27,000 nucleotides of DNA from a virus, in the IMG/VR virus record IMGVR_UViG_3300008111_000458, positions 4,488 through 31,487 of that record. The stretch is one strand, 5' to 3'. A program made the translations under genes and the position numbers. Each line of letters starts with the position of its first letter. Position 1 is the stretch's first letter. Below, one piece after another: positions 5,392 to 13,784 of the stretch. A model generated the notes under the pieces. The model was given only the letters and a program-made list of their open reading frames with translations. It was not told the DNA's origin and searched no databases.

Positions 5392-7904
5392 TATTCTTTC
5401 TTAGGTTTCTTTGCTCTTCCTTTTGCGTTCTCTTTAGCTATGGCTAGATCGTTTGCTTGATTCTCCCTAGCCACCTGTAGTTTCTCTTTCTCAACAGCTA
5501 GTTTCTCAGCAGCCAGTCTATTCTTGGCATTTATGTCAGCCATTCTAGCCTGGAAGTCCTTGCTAGCTTTGTCTTGTTCTGTAGCTAACTTGCTGATTTC
5601 CAACACATCAGGAACACCTGATGTATCTACATCTGCAAGTCCCATACCCATAGACTTAGCTTCAGCGTTTATTAGGGCTATCTCTTTTTTGTTAATTCTA
5701 TCTAGCTCGTTTTGGTAGTTCTCATTTGCAATATCCTGTTCTTTCTGAATTTGAGCTTGTTGCATTTGAGCCTGTGCAATCTGACCTTGTTGCTCCACTT
5801 GTTGCTGTTGAATCTGAAGCTGTTGCTCTTGCATAGCCTGTTGTCTGTCACGAAGCTCTTTGAACACCTTCTTCATTTGTCTCATGGACTTAGTGCTGTA
5901 CAGCTCAATTACATCGTACAAGCTTCCACCATTCTGCATCAGAGGCTGAGCAAGCTGACGAAGCTCTTCAAACATTCTAGTGTCATCAGGACGATTGGTG
6001 AGGAACACCTTCAAATCACGGAATCTAAGGTCTGTACCATTCACCGTAACAAAAGCTGATTCACCCTCGTTAGTAATATAGCTTAGGGTGGACTGAGGCT
6101 TCTTGCTTTCTACATATAGGGCAGCATCAATAATTGCTTGATAGAGCTGACCCATTACATATTCATGTGCTACAAACAGAGGTTCTGTTTGAGAATAAGA
6201 TTGTTGTACAGCTGTGTTTACACCTGTAGCAGATTCACTAGCAGATATAGATCCAAGTCTTTGTCTACTCATACCCACCAGTTCCCAACATTCATTCTTC
6301 ACTTGTTGAGCTAGTGTATAACGAGATTGTATCTCTTGTGTACGTGTGAGGTCAATATCTCTAAACTGGTTGAAGCTTGAAGGACTCTTTAAGTTCTCAG
6401 GACTGTCATCAATAAACACAACACCACGATTACGTGCTTCCATTTCCCAGATGTCAAGAGCATCTTGTGCATCACCATCCTTAGGAACAGGAATGTGCCT
6501 AATAGATGTCAAATACACCTTACCCACTTCCTTCTCTAGCAACTTGTAGAGCTGGTTCATACAAACATTGTATATCACCTGGAAGGGCTTCATAAGATCA
6601 ACAAGAGACTTAGCCTCTGTGTTCTTCACCTCGAATGTTGTGCCTATGATGGGGCAATAGTTGAGAAGTTTGTAGGGCTTGATATGATAGATGTCTGGAC
6701 CAATCTTGATTCCTTGATACCACTGATTCACCCATCCCCATTCTAAACTCTGTTGTGTAGGAATTGTTCCACTCTTATAGTTTTCATCTACAAGAATGGA
6801 CTGCTCATTACCAAGCTCATCTAAATAGATGAGTTTACCAATCTTCTTCTTACTTATCCAATAGCAACGTACAACAACGTATTTATAACCAAAAGAGCTT
6901 ACATTAGATGTAAGGCCCAAGAAGTCTTTTAGTCCATCATTGTTCTCCTTCATCTCTGATTCAATAATCATACGTGTCTGAAGAACAAGAGGATCATATG
7001 TATCATATGTTACGGAATCAATACCAGGTGTAACGTTAGGATTGCCCAGATTAGACTCACGTACATTGATAAGTCCATAGTCTTGTAATGAGCTCCTGAG
7101 GTGATCAATCTCTTCTTTAGTGAGATCAGGAATGCTTTCAATGATTTCTGAAAGCTCCATAACTTGCACTGTACCAGCGGCATAAGCACCTTGTGCTCTA
7201 CCTGTAGGGTCAGAAATATACTTCCTATCAGGAGTTGTAAGAAACCATGTATTCTTGGGGTTAGCCACCTCAATATTAAATCCAAGCTTTGAGTTGTCTT
7301 CATATATGTGATAGAATTCTCTGCCAGAAATTAGCATATCGCGAAATGCATCTTCTGATTTCTCTTTCAGATTGAATTCAGCTTTCATTGCATCAAGCTC
7401 TTCTTCATCCATGTCCTCTCCTACAATAGCAGCTTTCTCTAAGATTTTTCTCTTAGCTTGTGCAATAACGTATTGCTGAAGAATGCCTGTTTTAAATTCT
7501 AGCTCTTCAGCCTGACTATCATCATCAAATGCCTTTACACGAAAAGTGTCTGGGCGTTTTGTGATTTCACCTACCAGCTCGTTTACAGGTGTGGTGATGA
7601 TGGAATACATCTTTACATATGCAGGTAGCTGTAAATCAGCTGTTAGCACATCTGTAAAACTTCTCACTTGTGGCTCTTGATAGAAGTCCTCCATGCGAAG
7701 AATACCCTTCATCAGGTCATAGTTTTTAACAAATGTGTCACGGTTCTTTACATACTCAGCATATGCCTTGTTTGCAAAGTAGTCCATGGTGTTCTTTATC
7801 CAACTCTCATCCTGCTTTTCCTTGTCTGTCTTAAACTGGTCAGGGAATATGTTGAGATAGGCATACCTAATGGTAGCATCTTTCGTATATCTAATAATTG
7901 CCAT
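5391..7904 (-). CDS. Portal protein
   Basis: 837 residues. It forms the dodecameric ring at the packaging vertex through which DNA enters and leaves the head. The order TerL then portal, joined by a TAATG stop/start overlap at 7904, is diagnostic. The N-terminal two thirds show portal-type features: long helices, a basic segment around EITKRPDTFRVKAF, repeated aromatic beta stretches and the conserved-looking MSRQRLGSISASESATGVNTA region followed by helices. The last ~190 residues are Gln-rich coiled coil (QQAMQEQQLQIQQQQVEQQG), then alternating charged helix to a Lys-rich end, as in the barrel/C-terminal extension of crAss-like and P22-like portals. Size fits crAss-like portals. The assignment rests on position, length and architecture. 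Confidence 0.85.
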   Translation of the reverse strand: MAIIRYTKDATIRYAYLNIFPDQFKTDKEKQDESWIKNTMDYFANKAYAEYVKNRDTFVKNYDLMKGILRMEDFYQEPQVRSFTDVLTADLQLPAYVKMYSIITTPVNELVGEITKRPDTFRVKAFDDDSQAEELEFKTGILQQYVIAQAKRKILEKAAIVGEDMDEEELDAMKAEFNLKEKSEDAFRDMLISGREFYHIYEDNSKLGFNIEVANPKNTWFLTTPDRKYISDPTGRAQGAYAAGTVQVMELSEIIESIPDLTKEEIDHLRSSLQDYGLINVRESNLGNPNVTPGIDSVTYDTYDPLVLQTRMIIESEMKENNDGLKDFLGLTSNVSSFGYKYVVVRCYWISKKKIGKLIYLDELGNEQSILVDENYKSGTIPTQQSLEWGWVNQWYQGIKIGPDIYHIKPYKLLNYCPIIGTTFEVKNTEAKSLVDLMKPFQVIYNVCMNQLYKLLEKEVGKVYLTSIRHIPVPKDGDAQDALDIWEMEARNRGVVFIDDSPENLKSPSSFNQFRDIDLTRTQEIQSRYTLAQQVKNECWELVGMSRQRLGSISASESATGVNTAVQQSYSQTEPLFVAHEYVMGQLYQAIIDAALYVESKKPQSTLSYITNEGESAFVTVNGTDLRFRDLKVFLTNRPDDTRMFEELRQLAQPLMQNGGSLYDVIELYSTKSMRQMKKVFKELRDRQQAMQEQQLQIQQQQVEQQGQIAQAQMQQAQIQKEQDIANENYQNELDRINKKEIALINAEAKSMGMGLADVDTSGVPDVLEISKLATEQDKASKDFQARMADINAKNRLAAEKLAVEKEKLQVARENQANDLAIAKENAKGRAKKPKKE

Positions 7905-12857: not shown

Positions 12858-13124
12858 ATGACAATAACTATTACTAAGCAGATGATTGCAGAGGAGATAT
12901 GTGGTCACCTGTGTGCAATGGCTGAGTCTTGTCAGGATAGTTCTTATGAGCTAGATGATAAGTTTGTGCTTATTAAGAATTGGAGTGATAGAGGACCTTT
13001 GCGTATTACATGGCAGCTCATCCTTCAAGGCTATCACTGTTATGGGACAGATTGTATTCCTCCTTTTATTTCAAGGGATTGGAACCTGTCTCTCAAGATA
13101 TATAAGAAATTAAAGAGCCTGTAA
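12858..13124 (+). CDS. Small unknown early protein
   Basis: 88 residues beginning MTITITKQMIAEEICGHLCA. It has five cysteines, no CxxC pair, several Trp residues and a basic C-terminal helix (SLKIYKKLKSL). There is no membrane segment or recognisable domain. It stands alone between the elements described upstream and a strong terminator that overlaps its own stop codon, so it is a monocistronic gene. The compact size, isolated transcript and candidate operator in its leader suggest a host-directed early protein. Function not recognised. Confidence 0.65.
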   Translation: MTITITKQMIAEEICGHLCAMAESCQDSSYELDDKFVLIKNWSDRGPLRITWQLILQGYHCYGTDCIPPFISRDWNLSLKIYKKLKSL

Positions 13125-13140
13125 CAGGGCTCTTTTCTTT
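13112..13140 (+). terminator. Intrinsic terminator overlapping the gene end
   Basis: Perfect 8-bp stem AAAGAGCC/GGCTCTTT with an 8-nt loop TGTAACAG and a T-rich tail. The stop codon of the 88-residue gene lies in the loop. Confidence 0.88.
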
Positions 13141-13152
13141 TAACTTAAAATG

Positions 13153-13164
13153 GCTGTATACAGC
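13153..13164. repeat. Perfect palindrome GCTGTATACAGC
   Basis: 12-bp perfect dyad flanked by CTTAA and TTAAG, just after the terminator. It belongs to the CTGT-NN-ACAG set. Confidence 0.45.
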
Positions 13165-13271
13165 TTAAGAACAGAGAGTCTTTATAACCCATTGCGTTGG
13201 TTGTAATTAATAGGGCATATATAGTTTGATCAGCTTGTATGTTTTAGCTTTCTGTTTATGTAATGCACCAT

Positions 13272-13388
13272 CCTAGCTTCCCAAGGGCTAGCGGTTGTAA
13301 TAGATAGTGACCACCAACTTCAGGTAATGCTGCGTTGGAATCAGCAATGGACAGTATAATACTGTAGTACTACTGGCTATCTATTACA
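13272..13388 (+). ncRNA. Candidate structured non-coding RNA (or folded origin)
   Basis: The gene-free stretch 13125-13511 contains a dense nest of complementary segments. CTAGC/GCTAG forms a first hairpin (13273-13291). A perfect 12-bp long-range stem pairs TGTAATAGATAG (13296-13307) with CTATCTATTACA (13377-13388). Inside it, CCAAC (13314-13318) pairs with GTTGG (13334-13338), while TGCTG (13328-13332) in that loop can pair with CAGCA (13342-13346), a possible H-type pseudoknot. ACAGTA/TACTGT (13351-13365) closes a 6-bp hairpin, and GTAGTACTAC is a palindrome. A weak promoter-like TATAGTTTG lies near 13220. No reading frame of note exists. It matches no RNA family that I recognise. A replication origin or recombination site is the alternative. 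The strand is assumed from the flanking genes. Confidence 0.5.
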
Positions 13389-13480
13389 GCTGAGTGCAGA
13401 GGGATATGTACAGGTGTTCATCTGTTCTACTTCATAGAATGGAGGCTTTTTGGTGATGCAAAACCATATATTTTTATCTA

Positions 13481-13514
13481 AATCCTTATTAATCAATTAA
13501 ATACGATTGCTATG
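13481..13514 (+). repeat. Leader repeat unit 1
   Basis: AATCCTTATTAATCAAT followed by ACGATTGCTATG at the start codon. The same leader recurs before the next two genes (13776-13813 and 14294-14332). Confidence 0.6.
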
Positions 13515-13784
13515 TCAAAATTTACTAGAATTAAGGCACCTAAATACAGAATAGGTAGGTATGTCCTTAATGAATATGAGCTTAGATGCTTACAAGTTGA
13601 AGTGGCTAGAGGGCTTAAACAGCCTGGTATCAAGGTGAAAGATGATGCTGGTCAGATAGCCACCATCCAAGCTGATGGCACTATGGACATTAATATTGCA
13701 GGTTATGGTATAGCCACTAGATATACACTAGATCTGATTGCTCTCAGACGAGAAAGAGAACTAAAATTGAAAACAAATCCTTAA
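13512..13784 (+). CDS. Small basic unknown protein
   Basis: 90 residues, basic, no membrane segment. It begins MSKFTRIKAPKYRIGRYVLN, followed by a short helix (YELRCLQVEVARGL), beta-like VKDDAGQIATIQADGTMDIN and a basic Arg/Lys-rich C-terminal helix (LIALRRERELKLKTNP). Its charge would suit nucleic-acid binding, but no known motif is present. It is the first gene downstream of the structured region and starts inside the first copy of the leader repeat. Its last codons (Asn-Pro-stop) form part of the second copy. Confidence 0.65.
   Translation: MSKFTRIKAPKYRIGRYVLNEYELRCLQVEVARGLKQPGIKVKDDAGQIATIQADGTMDINIAGYGIATRYTLDLIALRRERELKLKTNP

Follow-up and report, generated by a model that had tools for sequence, protein, structure and literature searches.

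The stretch of DNA analysed here (the window, 27 kb) is part of a 31.5-kb virus record. Genes for the terminase, portal, and major head protein lie on the minus strand in its left part, and genes for an AAA ATPase and a family B-type DNA polymerase lie on the plus strand in its right part; judged by these genes, the layout is that of a crAss-like phage. The nearest named terminase is that of Leptolyngbya phage Lbo-JY46 (40% identity), and we found no DNA similarity of the window to named phages. Within the plus-strand module, a gene of 88 aa ends at 13124 and the next, of 90 aa, begins at 13512. The stretch between them (13125-13511) has no open reading frame of at least 50 aa, in agreement with the original prediction, which had proposed a novel structured RNA or an origin in this gene-free stretch.

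The perfect 12-bp stem at the heart of that prediction, TGTAATAGATAG (13296-13307) paired with CTATCTATTACA (13377-13388), is present, and the sequence around it (13290-13395) folds at -37.3 kcal/mol (z -4.0), better than all 200 of 200 shuffled versions; over the whole 387 nt the z-score is -2.5, with 2 of 100 shuffles folding equally well. The strong upstream terminator and the CTAGC hairpin are also real. At about 13153-13164, outside the conserved element, the GCTGTATACAGC dyad does not exceed chance expectation (z -0.9). The observation is therefore confirmed, although the signal extends further and is centred away from the 12-bp stem: a three-stem, double-pseudoknot RNA spans about 13256-13408 of the plus strand. 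The 12-bp stem is part of one arm, P5, and the CTAGC hairpin is P4, the catalytic stem. The conserved part had been overlooked; it consists of UAAUGCACC (13261-13269) and GAGUGCAGAGGG (13392-13403). The further pairings described (CCAAC/GTTGG, TGCTG/CAGCA, ACAGTA/TACTGT, and GTAGTACTAC) are present, all within the variable P5 arm. This is also the location of the pseudoknot proposed for TGCTG/CAGCA against CCAAC/GTTGG; the conserved pseudoknots are T1 and T2. The features of the window copy, all on the plus strand, are the following:

About 13111-13140, plus strand: intrinsic terminator of the upstream gene (fold against shuffles, z -4.2)
13256-13260, plus strand: P1 5' side, TTATG; pairs poorly in the canonical register and well when shifted by one; P1 covaries family-wide
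13261-13263, plus strand: predicted cleavage site U13261^A13262 and conserved UAA, aligned to the Rfam twister-P1 consensus; invariant in alignment A1
13264-13267, plus strand: P2 5' strand UGCA, partner 13395-13398; compensatory UGUA/UACA, UGCG/CGCA, and UGUG/CACA
13268-13269, plus strand: T2 5' strand CC, partner GG 13285-13286; CC/GG, UC/GG, and one UC/GA
13273-13277, plus strand: P4 5' strand CUAGC, partner 13287-13291; five of five pairs with compensatory changes
13278-13286, plus strand: loop L4, UUCCCAAGG, holding the T1 5' strand CCC (13280-13282) and the T2 3' strand GG (13285-13286)
13287-13291, plus strand: P4 3' strand GCUAG; compensatory changes in P4
13292-13392, plus strand: P5 arm, a long closed hairpin holding the 12-bp stem, apparently an exchangeable cassette (fold; covariation at its base; unrelated in near-identical neighbours)
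13395-13398, plus strand: P2 3' strand UGCA; P2 compensatory variants
13399-13400, plus strand: conserved GA, invariant in A1; in known twisters the G of a sheared A-G pair and the A of an A-A pair (PMC7026644)
13401-13403, plus strand: T1 3' strand GGG, partner CCC 13280-13282; T1 covariation
13404-13408, plus strand: P1 3' side, ATATG; P1 covariation family-wide
13512-13784, plus strand: first downstream gene, 90 aa, no known family; its mRNA would start with the ribozyme after cleavage

Between terminator and element lies an AT-rich spacer of ~110 nt (13141-13255) that may hold a promoter. The spacer is missing from the related locus L002; there, as in L031 and L033, the same terminator as the window's directly abuts the ribozyme at its predicted cleavage site. 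We also note a motif, CCTTAWTAAYCA...ACGATT...CTATG, that is repeated just before three consecutive genes (13484, 13779, and 14297) and is possibly a promoter or translation signal.

Covariation among relatives

Relatives were first found through the neighbouring proteins of the window element. They keep UAAUGCACCAU-CUAGC-UUCCCAAGG-GCUAG ahead and GAGUGCAGAGGG behind, and the hairpins between the two are unrelated. A pattern built on the 5' half matched at least 119 viral stretches, and our collection from IMG/VR phages came to 171 distinct copies, almost all in crAss-like phages, many of them from fresh water; no relative found among these shares the P5 arm of the window. Among 106 of the matches listed, bases 1-5 before the UAA pair with bases 1-5 after the GAGGG, on the diagonal only (z against shuffled of 5.4, 5.2, 4.8, 2.3, and 2.1 for offsets 1-5). 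By this measure P1 covaries exactly in the twister register, at offsets 1-5 as in known twisters.

A descriptor that fixes neither P2 nor T1 recovers compensatory variants of P2, T1, and T2; on shuffled sequence it gives four matches, none with the loop of the variant. As a predictive test, two further scans used variant 5' halves and asked whether the 3' strand follows. For T1, CAC occurs with GTG in 36 of 39 cases and CCA with TGG in 11 of 12; for P2, TGCG occurs with CGCA in 18 of 18, and TGTA is followed by its 3' strand in four of four. Across 134 model matches (118 distinct), 93.9% of cells pair versus 77.9% in shuffles, all slid versions drop to 29-45% paired, and compensatory changes occur in 25 of 27 pairs, counts being of sequences and not of independent events. 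The alignment was fitted to P1, P2, P4, and P5, leaving out T1 and T2. P2, P4, and P1 have 99.6%, 99.0%, and 72% of cells paired, each with compensatory changes, and the base of P5 is 98.6% paired, with seven of eight pairs compensatory. T1, to which the alignment was not fitted, is 98.6% paired, with three of three pairs changed on both sides (CCC/GGG, CAC/GTG, CCA/TGG, and TCC/GGA). T2 is 99.1% paired, mostly as CC/GG and UC/GG; its lone compensatory case is UC/GA, so that it is weaker than T1. Model R1, trained without the window, scores the window at 70.6 bits (E 3e-18). With compensatory changes in homologs present in P2, P4, P5, and T1, the structured RNA of the original prediction is strongly supported.

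Comparison with twister ribozymes

The core has the same order, spacing, and register as the Rfam twister-P1 consensus, UAA-P2(4)-2 nt-...-UCCCAA-2 nt-...-P2'-GA-GGG. The two conserved ends fit a type-P1 twister, since the scissile U^A, P2, the T2 nucleotides, P4 with its loop, P2', the GA, and the T1 strand follow one another in order. With this class (Rfam RF03160 twister-P1; Oryza sativa Osa-1-4, PDB 4OJI) the element shares the arrangement P1-UAA-P2-T2-P4-L4-P2'-GA-T1'-P1', the four-bp P2, both T1 and T2, the L4 UCCCAA, the 3' GAGGG, and the UA cleavage step (PMC5408937, PMC7026644). Stems P1, P2, and P4 occur in twister order (the window's P1 only in a shifted register), T1 joins L4 with the 3' side of L1, T2 joins the two nucleotides after P2 with two in L4, and the U-A step and the nucleotides of the non-canonical pairs are near invariant in A1. 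On what we take to be the Osa-1-4 sequence, with which the Rfam consensus agrees, the pairs A2-G39, A22-A40, and U18-A23 (Osa-1-4 fragment numbering) have as counterparts A13263/G13399, A13283/A13400, and U13279/A13284.

Three identities differ from those of known twisters. L4 has nine nucleotides (UUNNNAAGG), with one extra U; the near-invariant G-C that closes an eight-nt L4 is not found, the last P4 pair being CG, UA, AU, or GC; and the conserved GC in L2 with its GC partner in L4 is replaced by CC or UC with GG (once UC/GA), the pairing being kept and its identity changed. For these reasons we label the element a divergent twister variant and not a standard member. There is no P3, and P5 is long; a P5 arm is reported in about 1% of annotated twisters (PMC6154101). 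Searches of the window and the variant loci with Rfam at gathering and relaxed thresholds gave no match to the variant, and neither the window nor the variant copies reach the gathering score of RF03160. The longer loop, the altered T2, and the long P5 would explain why Rfam misses it. The proposal of a novel RNA class thus finds no support: the element has the anatomy of a type-P1 twister in a divergent form below detection by the Rfam model, and the original interpretation stands in part.

Two of 50 carrier records, both of crAss-like phages, also contain a twister-P1 that Rfam recognises (L127, 3715-3779; L364, about 1501-1569), at 57 and 48.5 bits (cut-off 67.2; E 2e-14 and 3e-11); the same relaxed threshold gave no twister-P1 match in 14 control genomes. 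In L364 about 100 nt separate the recognised twister from the variant downstream of it, and P2 is UGCA/UGCA in both. We found no literature linking twisters to crAss-like phages, and some of the environmental sequences in the original twister survey might belong to this family.

The element also has features in common with other self-cleaving RNAs. Twister-sister has a similar P4 terminal loop (PMC6154101) but is without pseudoknots and cleaves the opposite strand (PMC5408937); we reject this identity, as both pseudoknots covary here. The env9 and env22 twisters, with an optional P3 and used as scaffolds for synthetic switches, have the same core, whereas here a natural P5 is nearly always present and is swapped between phages as a unit. 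Bacterial twister and hammerhead ribozymes near Mu-like phage genes are likewise self-cleaving and associated with phage genes (PMC10085705); the present family differs in its crAss-like phages, defined genomic place, tandem copies, and exchangeable arms.

The P1 of the window calls for separate consideration, since it pairs at only one of five positions in the canonical register. A once-active ribozyme that has degenerated through a broken P1 in the window phage, with relatives still active, would account for this. We nevertheless consider it unlikely: every core position is intact in a copy scored at 70.6 bits by R1, and P1 shifted by one pairs at five of five positions with four more pairs, although this consumes the scissile U. 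Because P1 is reported to be dispensable in twister, with activity in its absence (PMC5408937), the poor canonical P1 lowers our confidence in an active twister only a little.

Genomic setting and exchange of the P5 arm

The crAss-like terminase family is present in 37 of 48 carrier records; the rest are mostly fragments or chance pattern matches. We examined the 44 nearest terminase loci with 6 kb or more of upstream sequence. The RNA is present in 24, on the strand opposite to the terminase and some 3 to 5 kb away from it, and missing from 20. A second, more distant terminase group has the RNA in three of 33 loci, many with short flanks. Copies share their strand with the next gene in 99 of 101 cases and with the preceding gene in 91 of 98; going by these neighbours, the preferred place is between co-directional genes a few kb from the terminase. 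Copies often lie 30-40 nt ahead of a gene, in 5' leaders. Two or more copies occur in 31 of 98 loci, always on one strand, and no locus has copies on both. A terminator hairpin as constant upstream partner was rejected, its enrichment being modest (36% vs 14% shuffled, and 23-25% in nearby controls).

No significant copy was found in the named crAss-like phages Lbo-JY46, phi17:2, Fpv3, crAss001, ProJPt-Bp1, and csAssE-Sib. Bacterial genomes gave four pattern matches, near chance; one of these, on a short Lake Lanier MAG contig (L136), is a real but truncated copy. L011 and L012, found by a P5 stem pattern, were discarded as coding sequence and chance matches.

This distribution bears on whether the signal belongs to the DNA, as a replication origin, an attC-like folded recombination site, or a transposon end. 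The stretch is gene-free, has inverted repeats and tandem copies with exchanged centres, and lies near a strand switch in the phage genome, as such an element might. DNA hairpin models, however, do not predict covarying loop-to-strand pseudoknots such as T1 and T2, copies are consistently sense to the next gene, and their number and place differ among close relatives, 20 of 44 being without the element. The conserved features are RNA features, and the occurrence of tandem copies also speaks against an origin; the origin suggested earlier is unsupported, an attC-like site is likewise rejected, and a DNA-level element of any kind is hardly credible.

In many phages, tandem ribozymes lie 159-400 nt apart, and small RNAs bearing a 5'-OH and a cyclic phosphate could be released from them. 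Examples are the following:

L166, 6165-6477, minus strand: tandem ribozymes
L123, 9876-10475, minus strand: tandem ribozymes
L147, 9833-10870: tandem ribozymes
L102, 421-2604: tandem ribozymes

We compared P5 arms among the 171 distinct copies, taking pairs with at least 85% identity over 100 nt or more of downstream flank. Of the 27 such pairs, 26 have unrelated arms. P5 is unrelated between the window and L002, although the two match in the core and at 241 of 250 flank positions. In L151 and L161 the matches number 249 of 249 positions upstream and 247 of 250 downstream. Similar arms, in turn, sit between unrelated flanks in 44 of 49 pairs. Near-identical flanks with unrelated arms, together with similar arms in unrelated contexts, indicate that P5 acts as a cassette that can be exchanged, probably by recombination via the conserved core. 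In L142, with flanks near-identical to those of L163, a 54-nt copy has almost no arm. Several P5 arms are also found again away from ribozymes, as closed hairpin modules standing alone; in four of the six below (L331, L269, L127, and L142), the next open reading frame of at least 50 aa begins 51-104 nt downstream.

L269, 6615-6685, minus strand: stand-alone P5-like module
L331, 3226-3326, minus strand: stand-alone P5-like module
L342, 3444-3516, minus strand: stand-alone P5-like module
L127, 204-270: stand-alone P5-like module
L142, 411-466: stand-alone P5-like module
L168, 4916-4986: stand-alone P5-like module

A second conserved domain is inserted in L4 at the extra U, as in L174 (about 7150-7300, minus strand), and also occurs in L040, L072, L123, L175, L183, L218, L261, L269, and L271 (ten copies in total). 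It reads GUGG-AUAURAAGACUU...AUGURAAA-CCAC followed by CUGAUUA...UAAUCAG and looks like an aptamer or docking domain. It has no Rfam match, and none was found outside this ribozyme among the loci examined. Low-scoring copies are not generally broken ones: most of those inspected carry an inserted domain in L4 instead.

Probable self-cleavage and possible roles of the arm

As read from the sequences, the three-stem double-pseudoknot anatomy in the twister register, the covariation in 171 copies, the sense orientation, the preferred genomic place, and the exchange of P5 are established. We conclude with high confidence that this is a self-cleaving ribozyme of the type-P1 twister class in divergent form, with a long P5 arm, and that it is transcribed rightwards together with the surrounding genes of a crAss-like phage. 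By analogy with known twisters, the RNA very probably cuts itself between U13261 and A13262.

The position of copies in 5' leaders, often 30-40 nt before a gene, the resemblance of the hypervariable structured arm and its related stand-alone modules to aptamers, and the three departures from the twister consensus could also suggest a new non-cleaving regulatory RNA, a riboswitch or protein-binding leader that shares the twister fold by chance. Such a coincidence seems very unlikely to us, however, since the invariant nucleotides (UAA, U..AA, and GA) are exactly those of the twister active site and non-canonical pairs, and since a ligand binder should conserve the binding site while its platform varies, the reverse of what we see.

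For a twister ribozyme, transcription through the element would let the RNA fold and then cleave in cis at U13261^A13262. As in known twisters, the upstream RNA would then end in a 2',3'-cyclic phosphate and the downstream mRNA begin with a 5'-OH. The cut might thereby separate a read-through transcript from the downstream message, which would then start with the compact folded core and P5, and the exchangeable arm could tune the cut or act through the folded 5' end. P5 may gate the cut, protect the end, or bind a partner under diversifying selection. Optional twister arms attach at P1, P3, and P5; P5 has been proposed as a natural regulatory site that gates the cut in natural twisters, and whether optional arms act as sensors has been asked before (PMC5052635). 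Tentatively, and with the odds against it, the family could be a large natural modular collection of regulated ribozymes, a fixed twister chassis for interchangeable P5 cassettes (some with the L4 domain) that sense a ligand or partner and gate the cut. As a weaker alternative, tandem ribozymes may set free small RNAs whose ends would suit circularisation by ligation.

Twister ribozymes are widespread, and we know of no established natural role for them. The present copies form a large, patchily distributed family in one phage group and in a defined transcriptional setting, and they indicate that divergent phage ribozymes escape curated models. The family also offers natural experiments, since some near-identical phages differ in the P5 arm alone and some copies (such as the 54-nt one in L142) have hardly any arm; what the arm and the cut do can thus be tested directly.
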